NCBI GenBank assembly: GCA_019694215.1
Contig: JAIBCK010000007.1
Location: forward strand, 1-58,617
Length of the DNA stretch: 58,617 nucleotides
From: Thermoflexales bacterium
Lineage (GTDB): Bacteria > Chloroflexota > Anaerolineae > J036 > Brachytrichaceae
Reading direction: 5' to 3'
Below are positions 27,346 through 41,347 of the stretch, piece after piece. The position numbers and the translations under genes were made by a program. Numbering within the stretch: the stretch's first letter is position 1; every line of letters begins with the position of its first letter. The notes under the pieces were generated by a model. That model did no database searches. It was given only the letters and a program-made list of their open reading frames with translations, and had not been told where the DNA came from.

Positions 27346-28860
27346 ATGCGATTCGGCCAGCGCCCGCTCACCCTGCTCGCCGTCGGCGGTGCGCTTCTGG
27401 CGATCGCGGCCGGCCTGGGCGTGGCGATCTCCACGGCCTCCAGCCGCGTTCCAGCCGTGCCGGTGGTGCCGGGCGCGGTGACGTACTACCCGACGCCGAC
27501 CTCACTGGCAACAGCGACCGTGCCAGCGACGGCAACATCGGCACCGACCGCCGCCCCGACCGCGACGCCCGCCCCAACCCCGGTCGTGTACGTCGTGCAG
27601 GATGGCGACACCCCCTGGGACATCGCGCTGAAATACCGCATGAGCGTCGACGACCTGATGGCGGCAAATCCCGGCGTCAACCCGGCGCTGTTGCGGTCCG
27701 GCGCCCGGCTCGTCATCCCGATTGCCGGTGCAGCCCCCGCGGTGCAAGTGTCTCGGCCGATCACGCTGGATGCGATGGTGTCCAACCTCGTCAACGTCGA
27801 TGGTGTCAACCTCGCGCTGCGCAAGGGCCCGGGCACCAGCCAGGACCTGATCGCGCGGCTGCCGGCCTTCACCCCGCTCAAGATTCTCGGTCGCACCGAA
27901 GACAGCGCCTGGCTCAAGGTGAGCAACACCCAGGGGCTGGAGGGCTGGGTGTTCACGCTGTATCTCGACATCCTGCCGAACCTGAGCATGGCGAGCCTGG
28001 ACATCCTGAGCCGTGACGTCGTGCGGCCGCCCATCCAGCTCGCCGTCAGCACCCCGAGCACTGCCACGGGCTCGGGCACGCCCGCCCCGACGCGCATCGT
28101 GAGCGGCGGGCCAGCCAGCTACCCGTACATCAGCGGAATTGGGGCGCGCTCGCGGGCGATCTTCGCCGCCGGCCAGAAGCTCGGCAACCGTCCCGGCAGC
28201 GTGGCATTGGTCGGAGACAGCAATACAGACAACCCGGCCTTCTTCAAACCGTTTGCCTGGGGCACCTATGACCTCGCGGGCTTCGCCTATCTGCAGCCAA
28301 CGATCGATTTCTTCAAGGGCTCCTTCCTGCACGACAGCCCGGCTGCCGTCGGCGGGTTCAACACGACCAAGGTGCTGGACCCTGCCAATGCGCGGGCGGG
28401 TTGCCTGCCCGGAGAGAGCCCGTTGCGCTGTGAATATCGTCAAACCAAACCGAGCGTGGCGCTGATCCTCATCGGAACGGGCGACCAGCACACCTGGCAG
28501 GGCTACGAGGGCCGGTTGCGCCAGATCCTGAACGAGACAATCGATCTTGGCATCATCCCGGTGCTGATCACAAAGGCAGACGACCTCGAAACGAAGGACA
28601 ACACCGCGCCACTTGGCTACATCAACGGCATCATCATCCGCCTGGCCGGCGAGTACGGCACCCCGCTGCTCAACCTGCGGGCGGTCGTCGACACGCTGCC
28701 CAACAAAGGCTGCATCGCGGATGGCTTCCACTACAACAAGCCCGCGGACGGGCAGGCCGCCAACTTCAGCGCAGCTTATCTGCAATACGGCTACAACCAG
28801 CGCAACTTAACCGCCCTTCAGGTGCTCGATCTGCTGCGGCGTCAGGTCATTGCGCCGTAG
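27346..28860 (+). CDS. LysM-SH3-SGNH envelope protein (SGNH array, member 1)
   Basis: This 504-residue exported protein has a hydrophobic N-terminal segment (about 8-28) without a lipobox Cys, followed by a Thr/Pro/Ala linker (about 45-80). A LysM domain is at about 81-125 (VVQDGDTPWDIALKYRMSVDDLMAANP), an SH3b-like domain at about 147-210 (NLALRKGPGTSQDLI, EGWVFTLYLDIL), and the SGNH-like domain from about 265. That domain has GDSN (290-293), a Cys pair (GCLPG, LRCEY), GTGDQHTW in block III, PVLITKADDLE and a DGFH that keeps the family Asp-His dyad. LysM and SH3b suggest peptidoglycan binding. It is the only member of the five with both Ser and DxxH. The stop lies in a tandem repeat. Confidence 0.85.
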   Translation: MRFGQRPLTLLAVGGALLAIAAGLGVAISTASSRVPAVPVVPGAVTYYPTPTSLATATVPATATSAPTAAPTATPAPTPVVYVVQDGDTPWDIALKYRMSVDDLMAANPGVNPALLRSGARLVIPIAGAAPAVQVSRPITLDAMVSNLVNVDGVNLALRKGPGTSQDLIARLPAFTPLKILGRTEDSAWLKVSNTQGLEGWVFTLYLDILPNLSMASLDILSRDVVRPPIQLAVSTPSTATGSGTPAPTRIVSGGPASYPYISGIGARSRAIFAAGQKLGNRPGSVALVGDSNTDNPAFFKPFAWGTYDLAGFAYLQPTIDFFKGSFLHDSPAAVGGFNTTKVLDPANARAGCLPGESPLRCEYRQTKPSVALILIGTGDQHTWQGYEGRLRQILNETIDLGIIPVLITKADDLETKDNTAPLGYINGIIIRLAGEYGTPLLNLRAVVDTLPNKGCIADGFHYNKPADGQAANFSAAYLQYGYNQRNLTALQVLDLLRRQVIAP

Positions 28861-28920: not shown

Positions 28921-30081
28921 TCATCCGGCGATGAGCGCAAGCATGTCCAACGTGGTAAGGATGCGCATCTCCTTGCCCAGGTCGCTGAGATGAAAGTAGT
29001 AGCCCCACTCGTCCAGCAGCCCATTTTGGGTGAAGGGCCGGTCCGGCAGCTGCGGGTTTGGAATGACCGGTAGACCCCGCGTGGACGCCCAGAAGTCGAT
29101 CAGGGGCAGTTGATACGCGGCCGCCAGTCGACGGACCACATCATTCAGGTAGCCCATCGGTGCCCCGCCCTGCCAGTTCTCGAGGTCATCGGCCTTCGTC
29201 ACGAGCACGGGCAGCACGCCCTGGCTGAGCGCGAGGTCGAGCATGCGGCGCAGGTTGGCCTCGTATTCGGTCCACACGTAGCGGTCTCCTGTGCCGATCT
29301 GGATGAAGACGATGGATGCCCGCGACAACCGCAGCTCACAGGGATAGCGTCCCTCCTCGGCAAGGCAAGTAGCGGGTTTACCCGGCCAGTTGGGCGCGAA
29401 CATGTCCGCGGCACGCAGCCCCCCTTCGACGGCCACGCTCTGCCGCCAGAAGGCGGGGGCGAAGCGCGCCGCGATGGCCGCCTCACGGGGCCGCCCGGAG
29501 AGCGGATAGCTGCCGGTCGCGATCTGGCCGAGGTAGCCCACCCAGGCCGAGTTGCTGTCGCCGGCAACCGTGAACATGGCCGGATCCCGCCCACGCGCGG
29601 CGGCCTGCGCATAGAGCGCCCGCTCCCGCCCACTGAGCTGCAGGACCCCGGCCGGTACCGTCAGAGCTCCCGAGGCAAGCGGGGCGACGCCGGGTGAGGT
29701 CGCCGTTGGCGCAACAGGCACCGGGCTGGGGGCCACCGGTGTCGGCGATGGGCGCGTCGGGGCGGCGACCGGAGAAGCAGCCGTCGCCGTCGGGATGCGG
29801 GTCGCCGGCGGCGCCGCGGTCGGAGTTGGCGTCGACGTCGAGGTCTCCGTCGGTGCCGCTGTTGCGGTGGGTGTCGCTGTTGCGGTGGCCGTCGCTGTTG
29901 GCGTTGCCGAAGGGGACGCCGTCGCGGTCTCGGTCGGCACGGCCGAGGGAACGGAGGTCTCCCCCACTTCCTGCCTATGCGAAATAGCAGGCGGGGAAGG
30001 CGACGCCGGAGGTGCCGCACAGCCCGCCAGCAGGCCGCCCGCCAGCGCGAGTGCCGCCACGTGCCTAACGTCGAATCGCAT
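28921..30081 (-). CDS. SGNH-like lipoprotein (array, member 2)
   Basis: This 386-residue lipoprotein has a signal peptide ending in LLAGC (Cys 21), then about 125 residues of Thr/Pro/Ala-rich linker, then the SGNH-like domain. Block I is GDSNSAW with Ser retained. The Cys pair is TCLAEE/YPCEL, block III is IQIGTGDRYVW, followed by PVLVTKADDLENWQGGAP and IDFW. The block V region is YYFHLSDLG, so His is kept but no Asp sits three residues before it. Its start lies 17 nt inside the upstream gene, implying coupled translation. Enzyme activity is uncertain. The linker holds an atypical SHRQEVGE stretch that coincides with a copy of the dispersed 16-nt word. Confidence 0.82.
   Translation of the reverse strand: MRFDVRHVAALALAGGLLAGCAAPPASPSPPAISHRQEVGETSVPSAVPTETATASPSATPTATATATATPTATAAPTETSTSTPTPTAAPPATRIPTATAASPVAAPTRPSPTPVAPSPVPVAPTATSPGVAPLASGALTVPAGVLQLSGRERALYAQAAARGRDPAMFTVAGDSNSAWVGYLGQIATGSYPLSGRPREAAIAARFAPAFWRQSVAVEGGLRAADMFAPNWPGKPATCLAEEGRYPCELRLSRASIVFIQIGTGDRYVWTEYEANLRRMLDLALSQGVLPVLVTKADDLENWQGGAPMGYLNDVVRRLAAAYQLPLIDFWASTRGLPVIPNPQLPDRPFTQNGLLDEWGYYFHLSDLGKEMRILTTLDMLALIAG
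29855..29908 (-). repeat. Imperfect 18-bp tandem repeat in the linker of member 2
   Basis: Three 18-bp units (29855-29872, 29873-29890, 29891-29908) encode part of the TATATP-type linker. Such in-frame repeats can change linker length. Confidence 0.7.
29968..29983 (+). repeat. Copy 3 of dispersed word TTCCTGCCTATGCGAA
   Basis: This copy is identical over 16 nt to the intergenic copy at 6077-6092. It lies within the linker-coding part of SGNH member 2, where it produces residues unlike the surrounding Thr/Pro/Ala composition, as if inserted. Confidence 0.4.
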
Positions 30082-31150
30082 CCAGCACCTCGATGGTCAG
30101 CCGCAGGTGGAGGTCCATCCCTGCCGGGCTGAGATGAAAGTCCAGATCTCCCTCATCCAGCAGTCCGTTGTTCGGCAGGCTACGCGTGGCCTGCCAGAAG
30201 TCGATCAAAGGCACGTCATATTCGCGCGCCAGCCGCCGCACCACACTGTTGATGAAGTCCGGCGGCGCCCCACCCGAGCGCGTCTCGAGGTCATCGGCCT
30301 TGGTCACCAGAACGGGCAGCACACTCTTCGAGAGGGCATGTTCGATCAGGGGACGTAGATGGCTTTCGAACGTTTGCCACTGATACTGGTCGCCTGTCCC
30401 GATTTGGATGAAGACGACGCTGGCGCGGGACACCCAGACCTCGCATTGGAACGGCGTCTGGGTCGTCCCACACAGGGCGCCGTCCGCCCAGACCGGATCG
30501 TTCATCGCGGCCGCCGTGAAGCCGCCGCCGGCCGCGAGGCTCACGCGCGGAAACGACTGGCTGAAGTAGTCGACCGTTGCCCGAAGGGAAGCGGGCAGGC
30601 CCGCTGCCGGGAATTCGCCCGTCACCACGCGCCGCAGATACACGGCCGGCTGCGAGTTGCAATCGCCGACGATGGTGAACATGCGCAGGTCCTTGCCCTG
30701 CGCGACGCTGCCCTGATAGATCGCCTTGTGACGCGCCGAGATGGCTGGCAACACACCGTTGGTCAGGGACACCGGCGGGAGGGTCGCGACTGCCGTCGCC
30801 GGCGACGCCGCCGTTGGGGTCAATCCGGCAGGCGCCGTCGCGACGGCCCGGAGCGGCGTTGCGACAGGAGCCGCGGACGTTGGGGGAGGATTGGGTGTCG
30901 GCGTGGCCGACGGGACCGGCGACGCGGTGGCGGTCGGTGTGTCAATCCGAGTCGCCGTCGCCGTCGCCGTCTCGGTTGGTGGCGGCGGCAGCGTCACCGT
31001 CGGCGGCGCAACGGTAGGCGCAGCCGGCGGGAGCGTTTGTGACGTCACCGGTGACGTCGGGCTCGTTGGCAGCGGTGTTGAGCTCGCCGGTGCCGCGCAG
31101 GCGGTCAGGAGGAGGAGGGCCAGCGTTGCGCCCCTTTGGAACGGTGTCAT
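30065..31150 (-). CDS. SGNH-like lipoprotein (array, member 3)
   Basis: This 361-residue lipoprotein begins MTPFQRG with lipobox LLTAC and a Thr/Pro-rich linker of about 100 residues. The SGNH-like domain has GDCNS, where Cys replaces the usual nucleophilic Ser. The Cys pair is LCGTT/FQCEV, block III IQIGTGDQYQW, then PVLVTKADDLE and IDFWQATR, and the block V region is GDLDFHLSPAG. The start was set at 31150, overlapping the previous stop by ATGA; the open frame upstream of it belongs to member 4 read in another frame. It is the third gene of a four-gene minus-strand unit starting at 33914. Confidence 0.82.
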   Translation of the reverse strand: MTPFQRGATLALLLLTACAAPASSTPLPTSPTSPVTSQTLPPAAPTVAPPTVTLPPPPTETATATATRIDTPTATASPVPSATPTPNPPPTSAAPVATPLRAVATAPAGLTPTAASPATAVATLPPVSLTNGVLPAISARHKAIYQGSVAQGKDLRMFTIVGDCNSQPAVYLRRVVTGEFPAAGLPASLRATVDYFSQSFPRVSLAAGGGFTAAAMNDPVWADGALCGTTQTPFQCEVWVSRASVVFIQIGTGDQYQWQTFESHLRPLIEHALSKSVLPVLVTKADDLETRSGGAPPDFINSVVRRLAREYDVPLIDFWQATRSLPNNGLLDEGDLDFHLSPAGMDLHLRLTIEVLDAIRR

Positions 31151-32487
31151 GTCAGGAGCGCATTCAGAAATTGAAGCGTGAGCAACAAGTGAAGGTCGGA
31201 GCCTTCGGGGCTGAGGTGGAAGTCGAAGTTGCCCTCGTCCAGCAGGCCGAAGTTTGGCAGGCCGCGCGTCGCGGCGTGGAAATCGATGAGCGGCAGATCT
31301 CGCGCCGCGGCGACGCGGCGGATTACCGTGTTGATGTAATCGGGCGGCGCGCCACCCTGCTGCATGTCCAACGCATCCGCCTTGGTCACCAACACCGGCA
31401 GGACCGGGACCGCCAGGGCGGCATCGAGGATGGCGTTCAGGCGGCCTTCGTACTCGCGCCACTCGAACTGATCGCCTGTCCCCAGCTCGATGAAGAGCAC
31501 GCTCGCCCGCGTGAGGCGGAACTCGCACGCGAGCGGCCCTTCGCTCGGCGGACACAGGCCGGGCATCACCCAGGCCGGATCGAACAGCGCGGCTGCGGTG
31601 TAACCACCATGGGCGGCCATGCTGGCCCGGCTGAAGGACGGCGCAAAGGCGGCCGCAGCAGCATGCATACTGGACAACGGCGCAATATCATACAAGTCCG
31701 TGGCAACCCTGAGCACGAAGGCGTAACCCTCCGAATTACACGCGCCAGCGACGGTGAACATTCGCCCGTCGCGTCCGGCTGCAATGGCGGCCCGATAGCG
31801 CGCCCGTGCCGAGGCCGTCATCGTGATGCTGGGCGGGAGGGGCTGCGGCTGGGGGGCCGGCGCTGGCACCGCCGCGGCGCGCGGCAGGTTGTCTGGCGAA
31901 GCGGTCAGTGCGACAAAGTCGCGCAGCAGCCAGCCCGTCTGCCCATCGCCGCCCCGCACGGCATACCAGGCCGCGGTGGCATCCATGCCCACCACGGAAA
32001 CGGGCGTGCCCGCGAAAACCGGAAAGGCGCGAGGCGCCCATAGCGCCGGCGCACTGCGCGCCCATGCCCCCGCGACGTCCACGCTGCCCGGGAGCGCCGT
32101 TGCCGCCGGGACGGAGAGCGCTGTCGGGGTCGGTCGGCTGGCGAGCGGCGTTGGTGGCACCAGAGTTGCGGCAGCTGGCGGCACCAGCGTGGCTGTAGCT
32201 GTCCTGGTGGGTGGCGTCACCGTCGGTAGTGAGGTCGGCGATGCGGACAAGGGCGTGGCCGTCGGTGACACTTCAGGCGTCGTGGTTGAGCGTTGTGCGG
32301 TTGGCGTCGGCACCGACGTCGGGGTCGCGGATTCAGTGGGTGGCGACGTTGCCGCGATCGTCGCGGCTGGGCCGCTGGTCACGGGCGGGAGGGTCGGCGC
32401 GACGGTGGCGGGGCTGGGCGCTCCCGCCTGACACGCCACGAACGCGAGGGCGACGATGCCGACAATCACCTCCCGCATGACGATCAC
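31147..32487 (-). CDS. SH3-like plus SGNH-like lipoprotein, altered block I (array, member 4)
   Basis: This 446-residue lipoprotein starts with GTG at 32487 in a GTGA overlap with member 5; ATG 32478 is an alternative. The signal peptide ends FVAC, a less typical lipobox. A Thr/Pro/Ala linker is followed by an SH3b-like segment (FPVFAGTPVSVVGMDATAAW, GQTGWLLRDFV), then the SGNH-like domain. Block I reads GACNSE, so both the Asp and the Ser of GDS are replaced. The Cys pair, IELGTGDQFEW, PVLVTKADALD and GNFDFHLSPEG are kept. This pattern suggests a binding protein or an enzyme using another residue. Confidence 0.8.
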   Translation of the reverse strand: MIVMREVIVGIVALAFVACQAGAPSPATVAPTLPPVTSGPAATIAATSPPTESATPTSVPTPTAQRSTTTPEVSPTATPLSASPTSLPTVTPPTRTATATLVPPAAATLVPPTPLASRPTPTALSVPAATALPGSVDVAGAWARSAPALWAPRAFPVFAGTPVSVVGMDATAAWYAVRGGDGQTGWLLRDFVALTASPDNLPRAAAVPAPAPQPQPLPPSITMTASARARYRAAIAAGRDGRMFTVAGACNSEGYAFVLRVATDLYDIAPLSSMHAAAAAFAPSFSRASMAAHGGYTAAALFDPAWVMPGLCPPSEGPLACEFRLTRASVLFIELGTGDQFEWREYEGRLNAILDAALAVPVLPVLVTKADALDMQQGGAPPDYINTVIRRVAAARDLPLIDFHAATRGLPNFGLLDEGNFDFHLSPEGSDLHLLLTLQFLNALLT

Positions 32488-33914
32488 CGCGCGATGGCGC
32501 TCAAGGTCTGCAGGGTCAGTACGATGCGGGCGTTCATGCCGTCATCGTTGAGATGAAAGCGCTGCGCGCCAAGGTCGATGATGCCGCGGGCGGCATCCTC
32601 GCGCACCTCCGGCGCAAGACCGCGATCCGTCAGCCCGCGCGTGGCCTGCCACAGATCGATGACCGGCACGCCGTATTGCGCACCGACGGCGCGGATGACA
32701 TTGTTGATGAAGCCCGGGGGCGCCCCGCCCTGCTGCGACTCGAGGTCATCGGCCTTGGTCATCAGGATCGGCAGCGTCCTGGCGGCGATGGCGCGGTCGA
32801 GAATCGCGCGCAGGCTGCCCTCAAAGCCCTGCCAGGTGAACGTATCACCGGTGCCCAGCGCGATGATCACGATGCTGGCGTTGGACACGCGAATCTCGCA
32901 TTCGAGCGGCGATTCGCCCCCTTTGCATTGCCCCGGATCCGACCAGGTGGGATCGAGCGCGGCGGCCGCGTTGAAGCTGCCGTGGGTGGCGAGGCTGGCG
33001 CGGTAGAAGGATTTGGCGAAGCGCGCGGAGACGCCGGCGAGCCCCCCGGCCCCGGAGGCGGAGAGGCTGTAGCCGCCATTTGCATAGCGTCCGAAATACA
33101 CCTGCCATTCGGAGTTGCAGTCACCAATGACCGTCACCATGCCGCCGTCGCGACCGGCCGCGACGGCCTGGCTGAACAGACCGTAAGCGCGATCGGGGAT
33201 GGCCGGCAGACCCCCCGCCACGCGCGAGAGGGGCAACACACCCGGGCTGAAGCCCTGCGCATTCACAGGCAACACGGTCAGCTCACCGACCACCTTGAAC
33301 ATCGAGCCATGCAGCCACACGCGCGAGCTGCCATCCTGCACCAGCACCCACGACGCAGTGCTGTCGCGGGCAATGGCGGTGTAGCTCGACCACTTCAGCA
33401 TGCGCCCCACCGGCCCCGCTGACCAGTCCGGGCCGTTACGCGGATAGGTGCTGTCGATGTTGATCGTGATCGGCAGCGTCGCGCCCTGCACGCGGGCCGA
33501 CGGCGTCGCGACGGACAGCGTCGGGAACGGCGTCGGCGAGGCCGGACCGCCGCTGGAAACGGCAGTTGGCGGGAGGGTCGATTGCGGCCCCGCGGTGATC
33601 GTCGCGGCCGGCGGGATCGGTGTGGCCACGGGCACGGCGCTCGTGGCGGGCGGGGCCGTCGCCGATGGCGTGGCGGTCGGCGGCGCCTCAGTGGGCTCGA
33701 TGGCGGCCTGCGTTGGCGCAATGACGCGTGGCGTCACCGTTGGCGCGATCGTGGCCGTGGCTGGCGGAACGGGCGTCTCCGTTGGGGCCGCCGTCGACGC
33801 TGGCGCGGCTGCGGTCGGCGGCAGCGGCGTGCTCGCCGGCGCAGCAGCCGCGCACGCGGTCAAGGTTGGGACAAGAAGAAGCGCGGCCAAAGCCGCGCGG
33901 CGTATTCGTGACAT
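32484..33914 (-). CDS. SH3-like plus SGNH-like lipoprotein (array, member 5)
   Basis: This 476-residue lipoprotein leads the four-gene unit, with lipobox LTAC and a linker of about 120 Thr/Pro/Ala-rich residues. A beta-rich SH3-like segment (RMLKWSSYTAIARDSTASW, SRVWLHGSMFKVV) precedes the SGNH-like domain. That domain has GDCNSEW with Cys at the nucleophile position, the Cys pair (QCKGG/LECEI), IALGTGDTFTW, PILMTKADDLESQQGGAP and QRFHLNDDG. No Asp precedes the block V His at the usual spacing. TATAGC ends 6 nt before the ATG and shares its bases with the -10 of the divergent lipoprotein gene. Confidence 0.82.
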   Translation of the reverse strand: MSRIRRAALAALLLVPTLTACAAAAPASTPLPPTAAAPASTAAPTETPVPPATATIAPTVTPRVIAPTQAAIEPTEAPPTATPSATAPPATSAVPVATPIPPAATITAGPQSTLPPTAVSSGGPASPTPFPTLSVATPSARVQGATLPITINIDSTYPRNGPDWSAGPVGRMLKWSSYTAIARDSTASWVLVQDGSSRVWLHGSMFKVVGELTVLPVNAQGFSPGVLPLSRVAGGLPAIPDRAYGLFSQAVAAGRDGGMVTVIGDCNSEWQVYFGRYANGGYSLSASGAGGLAGVSARFAKSFYRASLATHGSFNAAAALDPTWSDPGQCKGGESPLECEIRVSNASIVIIALGTGDTFTWQGFEGSLRAILDRAIAARTLPILMTKADDLESQQGGAPPGFINNVIRAVGAQYGVPVIDLWQATRGLTDRGLAPEVREDAARGIIDLGAQRFHLNDDGMNARIVLTLQTLSAIAR

Positions 33915-34529: not shown

Positions 34530-36224
34530 TTACGCTACGCGCTCGGGCGGCTGGCTGAGGTACTTTTCGCGGTTGGCGGTGCGGGCGACCTTGCCCGAGC
34601 TGGTCTTGACCAGCCAGCGTGGGGGCGCCAGGGCGATGACGCGGGCCACGACATCACTGCGCGACGCAATCTGACGGCGCAGGCCTTCGCGCAGGGCTTC
34701 GCGCGCCTCCAACTCCGATAGCTCGGTCTCCGCGATGAGCGCGACTTCCTCTGTCCCCGAGGCCTCGTCAAACAGGCCAAAGGCCACGACACGCCCGGCG
34801 AGGACGCCCGGGACCTCCTCGGCCAGCAGTTCGAGGTCCTGCGGGTAGACGTTCTTGCCACCGACGATGATCAAGTCCTTCTTGCGTCCGGTGACATAGA
34901 GCTCGCCGTCGGCGAGATAGCCAAAATCGCCGGTGAGATACCAGCCGTCGCGGAAGGCCTGTGCGGTGGCATCGGGGCGGTGGTAATAGCCCGAAAGCAT
35001 GCAGTTTGAGCGTAAGGCGATCTCGCCGACCCGCCGTTCGGCCAGGCTGGTGCCATCCCCATCGACGATGCGCACGTCGACGCCGTGAATCGGGCGTCCG
35101 GCCGACAGCATCTCGAGGGTCTCAGCATCGTTGCCCGGCGGAGGAAGCGCGGCATGCCTGTCCTCCCGCAACGCGCGCGCGAGCGGCCGGTCGATGGCCA
35201 CGGGTCCCGTCATCCCGCCCTGCGTGACGGCGAAGACGTTTTCGGCCATGGCGTAGCACGTCGTCATCATCGCAGCGCGCACCCCGAGGCCGGCAAAGCG
35301 CTCGACGAAGAGGCGGTGGCTGGCGGCGCGCATGGGCTCGGAGCAATTGACGAACGCGCGCATTGCCGAGAGGTCGACGCCGTCTACATCGCGCTCGCGC
35401 ACCCGTGTCGCCATGAAGTTGTAGGCGAAGTTCGGCAGCCAGCACAACGTTGCATGATGGGTGGCCATCGCCTGCAGCAGGCGGGCCGGAGCGCGCACCC
35501 AATCAAACGGCGAGAGCAGAACGAGCGGGACGCCAAGCGTGATCGGCAGCACGAAGGAGGCGATTAGGCCCATGTCGTGATACAGCGGCAACCAGCTGGC
35601 GATGCAATCCGTCGCGGGGTCAAGCCGAATGGCCGCGGCGTAGGCGTGGAGCTGGTTGAAGACGGCGCGATGGGACAGCGCGACGCCCTTCTGCAGGCCG
35701 GTGCTCCCAGAGCTGTGCTGCAGCAGCGCGATGTCCTCCGCCTCGATGTCCGTGCGCCAGTGCGGCATCGCGGGCTCGACAGCGTCCAACGTCAGAAGTC
35801 GAGGCAGCTCGGTGATCCCCTGCCCGGCCGCCTCGGCGAGCGCCTTCTCCGCCTCGGGCAGGAAGGCCGTGTAGGTCACGATTGCTGCGGGCCGGGTCAC
35901 GCCAATCAAGGCGACCAGGTCCTGTCGGTATTTCTCGGGCGAGAGTTTCTCGGTGAGGAAGGGCAGAATGGCCGGCGTCGCGCCGCACAGAACCGCGCCC
36001 CAGAAGGCGGCCAGCAACGGCTCGCCGTGTTCGAGGATGATGGCGATCACCGCGCCGCGCCCCAGCCCGTGCGCCTCGTATCGCGAGGCCGCCCCCGCAG
36101 CAAGCTCGGCCAGGCGCGCGTAGGTGATCGGGAGATCCGGCTGGCGGGCGCGCAACAGGTGGATGGCCACCTGATCACCTCGCACCTCCACATGAGCGCG
36201 CAGTGCCGCGGGGAGCGTGTTCAT
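34530..36224 (-). CDS. Fatty-acyl-AMP/ACP ligase (FAAL-type, ANL superfamily)
   Basis: This 564-residue adenylate-forming enzyme activates a carboxylic acid, probably a fatty acid, as acyl-AMP and loads it on a carrier protein. Landmarks are the P-loop SSGSTGLQKGVALSH, SWLPLYHDMGLIASF typical of FAAL proteins, TTCYAMAENVFAVT, and the C-terminal YLTGDFGYLADGELYVTGRKKDLIIVGGKNVYPQDLE region with the hinge Asp. The terminal domain ends SSGKVARTANREKY with the catalytic Lys. It starts 9 nt after the acyl carrier protein gene on the same strand, so the two form an activation-loading pair equivalent to DltA-DltC. Confidence 0.88.
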   Translation of the reverse strand: MNTLPAALRAHVEVRGDQVAIHLLRARQPDLPITYARLAELAAGAASRYEAHGLGRGAVIAIILEHGEPLLAAFWGAVLCGATPAILPFLTEKLSPEKYRQDLVALIGVTRPAAIVTYTAFLPEAEKALAEAAGQGITELPRLLTLDAVEPAMPHWRTDIEAEDIALLQHSSGSTGLQKGVALSHRAVFNQLHAYAAAIRLDPATDCIASWLPLYHDMGLIASFVLPITLGVPLVLLSPFDWVRAPARLLQAMATHHATLCWLPNFAYNFMATRVRERDVDGVDLSAMRAFVNCSEPMRAASHRLFVERFAGLGVRAAMMTTCYAMAENVFAVTQGGMTGPVAIDRPLARALREDRHAALPPPGNDAETLEMLSAGRPIHGVDVRIVDGDGTSLAERRVGEIALRSNCMLSGYYHRPDATAQAFRDGWYLTGDFGYLADGELYVTGRKKDLIIVGGKNVYPQDLELLAEEVPGVLAGRVVAFGLFDEASGTEEVALIAETELSELEAREALREGLRRQIASRSDVVARVIALAPPRWLVKTSSGKVARTANREKYLSQPPERVA

Positions 36225-36233
36225 GCCCGGCGC

Positions 36234-36485
36234 TCAGCCCGCCTTCGCGGCGCGGATGACTTCTGCCAGTTGCTCGAGCGTATCGAAGGTGTCGGCGTTG
36301 AGATCGGCGTCATCGATGCGCACATCGAAGGTCTTCTCGACGAAAAGGCCGAGGTCCACCAGGTGAAACGAATCGATCAGGCCGCTCGACAGGAGCGGTT
36401 CGTCGGCGCGCAGAACGCGCTTGGGCTGCTTGAGGATGCTGGTCGTGACGAAACCGGCCAGCGTGGCGATCATGTCGTTGCTCAT
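36234..36485 (-). CDS. Acyl carrier protein
   Basis: This 83-residue carrier protein has the attachment motif GLIDSFHLVDL, with Ser at about residue 39 as the 4'-phosphopantetheine site. It has the four-helix ACP pattern (IATLAGFVTTSIL, FHLVDLGLFVEKTF, LEQLAEVIRAA). It is separate from the housekeeping fatty-acid ACP context (no fab genes nearby) and pairs with the adjacent ligase. TAGAAT ends 8 nt before its ATG, so the transcript has little or no leader. It is divergent from the DUF456 gene. Confidence 0.88.
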   Translation of the reverse strand: MSNDMIATLAGFVTTSILKQPKRVLRADEPLLSSGLIDSFHLVDLGLFVEKTFDVRIDDADLNADTFDTLEQLAEVIRAAKAG

Positions 36486-38700: not shown

Positions 38701-39834
38701 TTACCTCCGGCCGGCCGCCATCACCCGCGCAAGCGCATCCGCGGTGGCCGCCGCAAGGCGCGCCGAGCCGGCAGGATTCAGGTGAACGGGGCTGTTGGTG
38801 TATTCGGCCAACGGGGAAAGGTCCCATACGTCCAGCAGCGGCACCCCGAGCTCCCCGGTCCGGCGCGTGAGCACGGCGCGGTAGCGGTCATAGGCGCGGC
38901 GGGGATAGAAGGCGTTGTAGCGCAGGTCGCTGTTCGCGCCGCCGGTCGTGGCGGTCGGCTCGTTGATAATGAGCAGCGGCACGTCCGCCTCACGGACGAT
39001 CTTCACGCCAACATCCAGCGCCGACCACAACACCTCCCCACCCTCCAGATCCGCCGATGTCACGCCGCGGAGGGTCTCGTTGGGTTCGAGGTCGATCGTG
39101 AGGCGCTCGGCCGGCCCGCTCAGGTCCTGGTCGATGCCCGTCGCCGCCCACATCGCGCCGAGCACCTGCAGCCGCATCAAGTCCGCGATCGGCCGGCGCT
39201 GACCCACCAGCGTCCTGCCCCACAGGTCTGGCCCCGCCAAACGCGCATCGTTCAGCGCCAGGGGCAGGCCCAGCCCGGCCACGGCGCGGGCATCGGCGGG
39301 GTTGTCCTGCAACAGCACGTGCTCCGGCTGCCGCTCGGCGACAAAGGCGTGCAGCGTCACCGCCCACACGATCAGATCGGGGTGATAGGCGAGCGCGCGG
39401 CGCATCAGCATCAGGTCCTTGGCGACCGAGAAATCGGGATAGCCCAGGTTGTAGAAGCGAACGCGGCGGCCATCCGGCGCGCGCAGGGCCATGGCATTCA
39501 GCTTGCCGGTGAGCGTATCGGCCGGCGCGAGCAACACCCCCCACACCGAGCTGTCGCCGAGCACCACGATGCGATACTCATCCGCCGCCTTTGGCGCGGC
39601 GAGCGCGTGGCTGGCAAACAGGGCGTCGAGGTTGCCCACCACCAGGTTGTAGTCGCGCGCAGGGTCATCGCCAAACGGGAAACGCTCACGCGCTGGGAAA
39701 ACCCTGCCATACAGGCTGAGCGAACCGAGCCAGGGCAGCGGCTGGAGCACGGCAAAGGCCAGGTTGAGGATGACGAAGAACACCAGCGCCCGCCCGAGCA
39801 CCCGTATCGCAATCCCACCGGTCACGGGCCTCAT
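38701..39834 (-). CDS. SGNH-fold membrane protein, partner of the MBOAT
   Basis: This 377-residue protein has one N-terminal membrane segment (about 11-33) and an extracytoplasmic SGNH-type domain. Block I is VVLGDSSVWG with Ser at about 95. The block V region is SPVHLNPAG, with His but no Asp three residues before it. MNEPTATTGG-like NEPTATTGGAN and YRAVLTRRTGELGVPLLD lie between. It corresponds in place and type to DltD or AlgX/AlgJ, which finish O-acylation with an MBOAT. Its ATG overlaps the MBOAT stop (ATGA, 39831-39834), so the two are translated together. Confidence 0.85.
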   Translation of the reverse strand: MRPVTGGIAIRVLGRALVFFVILNLAFAVLQPLPWLGSLSLYGRVFPARERFPFGDDPARDYNLVVGNLDALFASHALAAPKAADEYRIVVLGDSSVWGVLLAPADTLTGKLNAMALRAPDGRRVRFYNLGYPDFSVAKDLMLMRRALAYHPDLIVWAVTLHAFVAERQPEHVLLQDNPADARAVAGLGLPLALNDARLAGPDLWGRTLVGQRRPIADLMRLQVLGAMWAATGIDQDLSGPAERLTIDLEPNETLRGVTSADLEGGEVLWSALDVGVKIVREADVPLLIINEPTATTGGANSDLRYNAFYPRRAYDRYRAVLTRRTGELGVPLLDVWDLSPLAEYTNSPVHLNPAGSARLAAATADALARVMAAGRR

Positions 39835-41231
39835 CGCGTCACCCCCAGAAGGGCGCCAAACACGCGCAGGGCACTGGCGGGCATGGGTGTGGCGAACCAC
39901 ACCCAGCCGAGCGCGACGAAGTGAAAAGTGATCAGCACCCCCACGAGGTGGCGCAACTTCGTCCAACGTGGATCGAGCAGGCCGGATTGCGGCCGCGCCT
40001 TGAGCGCATCGGCGAAGCGGTTGTGCACAAACAGGCCCACCGCATGCCAGGCCCCCCACAGCGCGAAGTTGGCCGTCACGCCATGCCACAGCGCAATCAA
40101 CATCATCGTGCTGGCCTGCCCCACGGCGACGATCTGCATCGGCTGCCAGTCGCGTAGACGCAGGGCGCGGGTGAGCGGATTGAACCAGTAGCCGCGAAAC
40201 CACTGCGACAGCGACATGTGCCAGCTGTTCCAGAACTGGGTGAGGTTGGGCTTGAGATACGGCCGCTCGAAGTTTTCCGGCAGGCGCACGCCCAGCGCCC
40301 GCCCGATGCCGATGGCGATGTCGCTGTAGCCGCCGAAGTCAAAGTAGATGCGCAGGGCGTAGGCGTAGACCAGCAGCCACATCCACAGCCCGTGGGCGTG
40401 CAGGGCGTTATCGCCGTTCAGCGCCACAAGGGCCAACGTATCGGCGAGCGCGAGCTTCTTGACCAGCCCAATCAGGATGCGCCGGGCCGACTCGCCCAGG
40501 TCCGCCACATTCGGCCGCCAGGGCGCGCGCCAGTCCTTGAGAAAGCGGTCGGCGCGATCGATCGGGCCGGACAGGAAGGCGGGCGTGAAGAGCGCGAACA
40601 CAACGAACTCTGCCAACCCGTACGGGCGGAGCGTCCGCGCACCGGTCATGCGGTCGCGCAGCACCGCCAGCAGGCGGAACGCCAGATACGAGTAGCCCAG
40701 CCAGTTGACGTCGGATGCCGAGGCCTGCGCGAGGTCCTGCGCGCCGAGCGCGCGGAGGCCGGCGCTTATCAGCGCGGCCAACACTTCGGCCTTGAGCAGG
40801 ATGAAGAGGACAAGCAGCAGTGCGACGGGCAGCCAGAGCACCCTGGTGGCGGCGGTCGACAGCCGCGCCGCAAGTGCACCCAGGCCCGCGAGAAGCGTCA
40901 GCGCGACGGCCACCAGCAGCGGATCCGGCGGCCGCGCCGGCAGCAGGGACAGAGCAGGAAGGAAGCGCGTCACGGCGAGCGCGGCGACGACGAGCGCGGC
41001 GGCGATCAACGCGCGGCGGGTTGCGGCCTCACGCAACGCGGAGAGCCCATGCAGCGAAAACCACACCAGCACCACCAGACCGAGCGATGCGAGCGGCAGC
41101 CAGAACGTGAGGTTGCGGATCGGCGAGACGGGCTGGAGCAGAAAAGGAAACGCGATGGCGGCCGCAAACGCGAGGCCGTTGCGAATCTGCATTACGCGCG
41201 AGGTCTGCAATGGCGTGGCGGATGCCGTCAT
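39831..41231 (-). CDS. MBOAT-family O-acyltransferase (AlgI/DltB-like)
   Basis: This 466-residue polytopic membrane protein belongs to the membrane-bound O-acyltransferase family. The MBOAT core is clear: LSGPIDRADRF, YAYALRIYFDFGGYSDIAIGIGRALG, RPYLKPNLTQFWNSWHMSLSQWFRGYWF, and the conserved His in IALWHGVTANF. Relatives pass acyl groups across the membrane from a cytosolic donor to an outside acceptor with an SGNH partner. Its ATG shares a base with the stop of the upstream microprotein (TGATG at 41229-41233). It forms one unit with the microprotein and the SGNH gene. Confidence 0.92.
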   Translation of the reverse strand: MTASATPLQTSRVMQIRNGLAFAAAIAFPFLLQPVSPIRNLTFWLPLASLGLVVLVWFSLHGLSALREAATRRALIAAALVVAALAVTRFLPALSLLPARPPDPLLVAVALTLLAGLGALAARLSTAATRVLWLPVALLLVLFILLKAEVLAALISAGLRALGAQDLAQASASDVNWLGYSYLAFRLLAVLRDRMTGARTLRPYGLAEFVVFALFTPAFLSGPIDRADRFLKDWRAPWRPNVADLGESARRILIGLVKKLALADTLALVALNGDNALHAHGLWMWLLVYAYALRIYFDFGGYSDIAIGIGRALGVRLPENFERPYLKPNLTQFWNSWHMSLSQWFRGYWFNPLTRALRLRDWQPMQIVAVGQASTMMLIALWHGVTANFALWGAWHAVGLFVHNRFADALKARPQSGLLDPRWTKLRHLVGVLITFHFVALGWVWFATPMPASALRVFGALLGVTR

Positions 41232-41347
41232 CAGAAGCCCTGGTAGATCCAGCGCGGCGAGGTGCCGGCCGTCGCGATGATCAACAGCAGAACGGCAAGG
41301 CAGATCAGCAGCGCGGCCAGCGTTTCGCGATCAAACAGGCGTCGCAT
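41231..41347 (-). CDS. DltX-like 38-residue membrane microprotein
   Basis: This short gene starts with ATG at 41347 and ends with TGA at 41231-41233, sharing its last base with the MBOAT start. The product begins MRRLFDRE, has one hydrophobic helix (about residues 9-28), and ends SPRWIYQGF. Charge placement predicts N-in, C-out. In the Gram-positive Dlt pathway, DltX is a similar single-helix protein encoded in the operon. Its C-terminal aromatic motif holds a Tyr that relays the acyl group between DltB and DltD; the pattern W-x-Y-x-x-F here matches that type. It lies 9 nt after the M20 gene. Evidence is position, coupling, topology and motif. Confidence 0.75.
   Translation of the reverse strand: MRRLFDRETLAALLICLAVLLLIIATAGTSPRWIYQGF

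Follow-up and report, generated by a model that had tools for sequence, protein, structure and literature searches.

A conserved 38-residue microprotein is the probable stand-alone acyl shuttle of a Dlt-like envelope acylation pathway in Anaerolineae

PMC12148441 describes MBOAT/SGNH acylation as a relay: by way of the MBOAT, an acyl group leaves a carrier thioester for the Tyr within an FXYXXF tail, from where it reaches the Ser of the SGNH protein. DltX binds both DltB and DltD as a heterotrimer (PMC12148441), and the same paper reports that the Tyr motif of PatA, a motif of the kind studied here, was shown to be acylated. That MBOAT/SGNH systems generally use a Tyr relay has been published before, mostly with the motif fused to the MBOAT (PMC12148441 and the work cited there), and MBOAT/SGNH pathways outside Dlt are said to operate without a carrier protein and without a DltX-like microprotein (PMC12148441). 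The pair PatA/PatB, which O-acetylates peptidoglycan, and related pairs resemble the system described below in combining an MBOAT with an SGNH protein and in having, as acyl carrier, a Tyr within a C-terminal hexapeptide. In those pairs the motif sits on additional helices of the MBOAT itself and acyl-CoA is the donor, whereas here the motif is encoded by a separate gene and accompanied by an acyl carrier protein (ACP).

The window, by which we mean the whole 58,617-nucleotide stretch of DNA analysed, contains between its M20 and MBOAT genes a minus-strand open reading frame, 41347-41231(-), whose product is MRRLFDRETLAALLICLAVLLLIIATAGTSPRWIYQGF. A sequence-only reading had described this product as a 38-residue microprotein with one membrane helix and a C-terminal tail, starting at an ATG 9 nt past the M20 stop and ending in a TGATG overlap with the MBOAT start; the translation and the window sequence bear out each of these details, the overlap amounting to one shared base. 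The M20 gene itself was considered as a functional partner and set aside as incidental, not being found beside the system in the relatives examined. The features of the system in the window are as follows:

41231..41347, minus strand: microprotein of 38 aa, proposed shuttle, with one transmembrane helix and a C-terminal PRWIYQGF in which Tyr35 is the proposed acyl carrier
41231..41233, minus strand: microprotein stop codon TGA, which shares one base with the start codon ATG of the MBOAT (TGATG), a stop-start coupling kept in relatives
39831..41231, minus strand: DltB-like MBOAT of 466 aa, with invariant His383 (LWHG) and His338, without a C-terminal Tyr motif
38701..39834, minus strand: SGNH-fold protein with an N-terminal helix, a GDSS block, invariant Ser95 and invariant His351; proposed second transferase
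36234..36485, minus strand: acyl carrier protein with an SGLIDS phosphopantetheine site; adjoins the MBOAT-SGNH cluster in relatives
34530..36224, minus strand: fatty acyl-AMP ligase (FAAL), whose closest solved relatives are FAALs, not DltA

The hydrophobic stretch of the microprotein covers residues 10-28 (19-residue window, mean Kyte-Doolittle 2.88). The basic N terminus that had been claimed for it is weak in the window sequence, where the N-terminal side has a net charge of +1 and the tail also +1, but the claim holds across 27 homologues, with a mean charge of +1.85 on the N side and +0.04 on the C side. This charge bias appears in 25 of the 27 members, and it is the sole basis on which the C terminus is predicted to be extracytoplasmic. 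Comparison with NCBIfam and Pfam gave no credible match for any member of the family, and a search of the PDB with the family profile returned insignificant matches only.

MBOAT relatives were taken from the window's family and from GTDB representatives, the close ones being Chloroflexota and mostly Anaerolineae. Just upstream of nearly every intact MBOAT homologue lies an open reading frame with a P-x-WIYQGF ending. WIYQGF is the ending of 77 of the 83 distinct genes and FIYQGF that of two; WIYQGY, WIYQAF and WVYGGF occur once each, and there is one outlier. In the alignment of 27 homologues A12, P31, W33, I34, Y35, Q36, G37 and F38 are invariant, and a segment before the helix, REN, is also conserved. 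The codons of the tail differ synonymously, third codon positions are the most variable, and the median dN/dS is 0.20 over 448 homologue pairs. The reading frame, the helix and the C-terminal Tyr and Phe upstream of homologous MBOAT genes, on whose conservation the sequence-only reading had staked its proposal, are therefore all kept. A gap of -1 or 0 nt between the microprotein stop and the MBOAT start, found in 38 of 50 linked homologues, suggests that the two are translated in a coupled manner.

The window holds many spurious open reading frames, so that a chance frame in GC-rich DNA had to be weighed. The invariant tail, the dN/dS and the stop/start gaps place this gene far beyond chance; together with conservation, purifying selection and the co-inheritance described below, they refute that explanation, which has essentially no probability left. 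The 38-residue frame is a real gene. Nor is it a piece of its neighbour: many relatives have the MBOAT ATG in frame immediately past the stop, as would be expected if the stop were recoded and the frame were an N-terminal extension of the MBOAT, but the stop codons are used almost equally (TAA 28, TAG 26, TGA 24), the MBOAT lies in another frame (gap -1) in the window and in 12 other cases, and the gene is located elsewhere in three genomes (G521, G011 and G170). Even stop-codon use, frame differences and unlinked copies led us to reject recoding as having hardly any likelihood.

In many relatives the operon runs on one strand in the order microprotein-MBOAT-SGNH-ACP-FAAL; in one family the FAAL-ACP genes are divergent. 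The window has the same five genes in two blocks: some 2.2 kb separate the MBOAT-SGNH pair from the ACP and FAAL genes downstream of it, which the sequence-only reading had missed and which directly adjoin the pair in relatives. Plus-strand genes lie between the two blocks. The isolated MBOAT/SGNH pair implied by the sequence-only reading thus gives way to a five-component Dlt-like pathway in which a fatty acyl-AMP ligase replaces DltA. Five further SGNH/GDSL proteins are encoded after the FAAL gene (window 28921-33914 on the minus strand and 27346-28860 on the plus strand), at least three of them with lipoprotein-like signal starts and one with LysM and SH3 domains, and similar genes also occur near the system in relatives (L111, L112).

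The MBOAT is nearest to DltB both in sequence and in fold comparison, and its H383 and H338 align with DltB and are invariant across homologues; its DltB-family score of 203.7 falls below the equivalog cutoff of 375. We looked for a Tyr shuttle motif at the C termini of the cognate MBOAT homologues and found it absent. The SGNH protein combines an SGNH fold with an invariant GDS Ser95 and an invariant His351, and its N-terminal helix looks membrane-spanning. The catalytic His of the MBOAT and the Ser and His of its partner that mark MBOAT/SGNH relays are both present. It does not match the DltD family PF04914, its profile gave no sequence match in the PDB, and the fold search returned generic SGNH esterases, with DltD at rank 7 (TMq 0.40) and PatB at rank 33. 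Position H-3 of block V, where the catalytic Asp usually stands, has no Asp in most SGNH homologues, and Asn predominates at H-4; the invariant Asp335 is a possible stand-in for the missing Asp. The carrier protein has a weak DltC score.

FAALs are typically associated with the assembly of polyketides, peptides and lipids. The top PDB matches of the window ligase are FAALs, and its best NCBIfam match is PRK09192 at 350.8 bits, a score that does not reach the subfamily cutoff of 600; by its sequence the ligase is assigned to the FAAL family. The system is like known FAAL/ACP pairs, including those of ligases 3pbk and 3kxw, in its ligase family and its ACP partner. A search of the literature for a FAAL tied to an MBOAT/SGNH relay found none.

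The closest described counterpart of the microprotein is DltX (PF12459) of the Dlt D-alanylation pathway, which is likewise about 40 aa long with one helix, encoded by a stand-alone gene clustered with a DltB-type MBOAT, ending in aromatic-x-Tyr-x-x-Phe, and partnered by a carrier protein and an SGNH protein. The microprotein is unlike DltX in having Trp for the first Phe and a REN segment before the helix, in having a FAAL as partner ligase and an SGNH partner outside the DltD family, and in occurring beside true DltX in some genomes. The Tyr and terminal Phe of FXYXXF are kept, and the motif as a whole fits only when Trp is accepted in place of the first Phe, which is itself present in 2 of 83 genes. 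Comparison of the microprotein and DltX profiles aligned the helix end and the tail with a probability of 93.7 over 21 columns, too few to tell homology from convergence.

These likenesses raise the alternative that the gene is a divergent DltX in an ordinary dlt operon attaching D-alanine or another amino acid to a polymer. Equal size and topology, the tail recovered by profile comparison, its near-identity to the FIYQGF of Chloroflexota DltX and the DltB-like MBOAT all speak for this. Against it, PF12459 matches none of the 27 members at E<=1, whereas true Chloroflexota DltX do match it, and DltX above the Pfam cutoff occurs in 9 of the 301 genomes of the phylum sample, with endings mostly FIYQGF. 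The company of dltA, dltB, dltC and dltD is also missing at the locus, where the ligase is a FAAL, the SGNH protein is not PF04914, the MBOAT is below its cutoff and the DltC score is weak. In addition, one genome (G055) has a true dlt set, with DltD, DltX, DltA and DltB each identified by its own family, on the same contig as a FAAL-type shuttle gene. We consider an ordinary dlt operon unlikely. By PF12459 the microprotein falls outside the DltX family, and it is most likely DltX-like in action.

Co-inheritance was assessed in three genome samples. In the family sample of 28 genomes, 24 have both a close MBOAT and the microprotein and 4 have neither, with 26 microprotein genes and 26 MBOATs in all. 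Among the 249 genomes of the class sample, where a cognate MBOAT was one scoring above 300 bits, 53 have both, one has the microprotein only and 195 have neither. The 301 genomes of the phylum sample comprise 26 with both and 275 without a confident pair, with two marginal microprotein matches, both outside the class. Presence therefore agrees in 24/24, 53/54 and 26/26 genomes, respectively. Because the samples have genomes in common and their members are related by descent, the Fisher values exaggerate the significance of this co-occurrence. In genome G339 (locus L186) a shuttle-like gene with an FIY.. ending is present and a cognate MBOAT was not detected in that assembly.

The microprotein is inherited together with the MBOAT even when the two are unlinked. 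In G521 the microprotein gene overlaps the FAAL stop (ATGA) on a contig apart from the MBOAT and SGNH genes, and in G011 and G170 microprotein and MBOAT lie on different contigs. In two genomes (G012 and G018; loci L026, L027 and L035), two cognate MBOATs are matched in number by two shuttle genes. At L195:7888-8817 in G011, the shuttle gene stands 3 nt after a fatty acid hydroxylase gene (PF04116), on a contig separate from MBOAT and FAAL; this single case is a hint that the cargo may be a hydroxylated fatty acyl group.

Taken together, these results make it probable that the microprotein serves as a free-standing acyl shuttle in a Dlt-like pathway of envelope acylation. In this pathway, the FAAL would activate a carboxylic acid that is probably a fatty acid and load it onto the ACP. 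The MBOAT would then move the acyl group through the membrane onto Tyr35 of the extracytoplasmic C-terminal WIYQGF, and the tail of the microprotein, presumably held in a complex with its partners, would swing over to the SGNH protein, whose Ser would accept the acyl group and esterify an acceptor on the outer surface. As the cognate MBOAT is without a fused C-terminal motif, the microprotein most likely provides the acyl-Tyr shuttle in trans, much as DltX does for D-alanine. The DltX-like relay proposed by the sequence-only reading has good support from comparative evidence, namely the conserved Tyr and Phe, co-inheritance, the motif-less MBOAT and a full Dlt-like gene set, and is amended in that the locus is FAAL-based.

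The microprotein might instead have a structural or assembly role, linking MBOAT to SGNH, with a Tyr motif that binds and carries no acyl group, as the DltX heterotrimer and the conserved REN segment ahead of the helix would allow. However, conservation along the protein is highest at the Tyr and the terminal hexapeptide, which are of the kind reported as acylated in PatA (PMC12148441), and no other such Tyr motif is present at the MBOAT C terminus. A purely bridging role is accordingly quite improbable in our estimation. An AlphaFold model of a microprotein-MBOAT read-through chain with a one-residue linker modelled the MBOAT well and left the tail unplaced, with pLDDT values of 39-45 for the blocks that span residues 21-40, so that the model speaks neither for nor against docking.

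Lower-scoring MBOATs in the same genomes carry FIYFQF or FIYARF fused at the C terminus, the PatA-like arrangement described in PMC12148441. The Tyr hexapeptide of the MBOAT/SGNH relay class is present in the new system as well, as a separate gene. The group therefore includes Dlt systems with a separate shuttle, FAAL-type systems with a separate shuttle and MBOATs with a fused motif, and some genomes bearing the microprotein family also have true Dlt or fused-motif MBOATs. Of the earlier suggestion that the relay is general in MBOAT/SGNH systems, the generality of the Tyr relay stands but had been published before, and the separate microprotein is not general. A Rickettsiales MBOAT (L055:2555-3979) has a fused C-terminal FLYFNF and is followed by a candidate partner gene.

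A stand-alone shuttle together with a carrier protein outside Dlt is new and departs from the published picture (PMC12148441), to which the microprotein family, present in about one-fifth of the sampled genomes of its class, is a counter-example. The family suggests that an MBOAT fed by a carrier protein has its shuttle as a separate protein, irrespective of the cargo. The chances appear evenly balanced that this is a lipid-cargo branch of the Dlt type, in which the microprotein Tyr carries a fatty acyl group via the DltB-like MBOAT to the SGNH transferase; Anaerolineae would thus use fatty acids from an ACP to acylate a polymer or lipid of the outer surface. The family points to a new kind of acylation on the surface of Chloroflexota cells.
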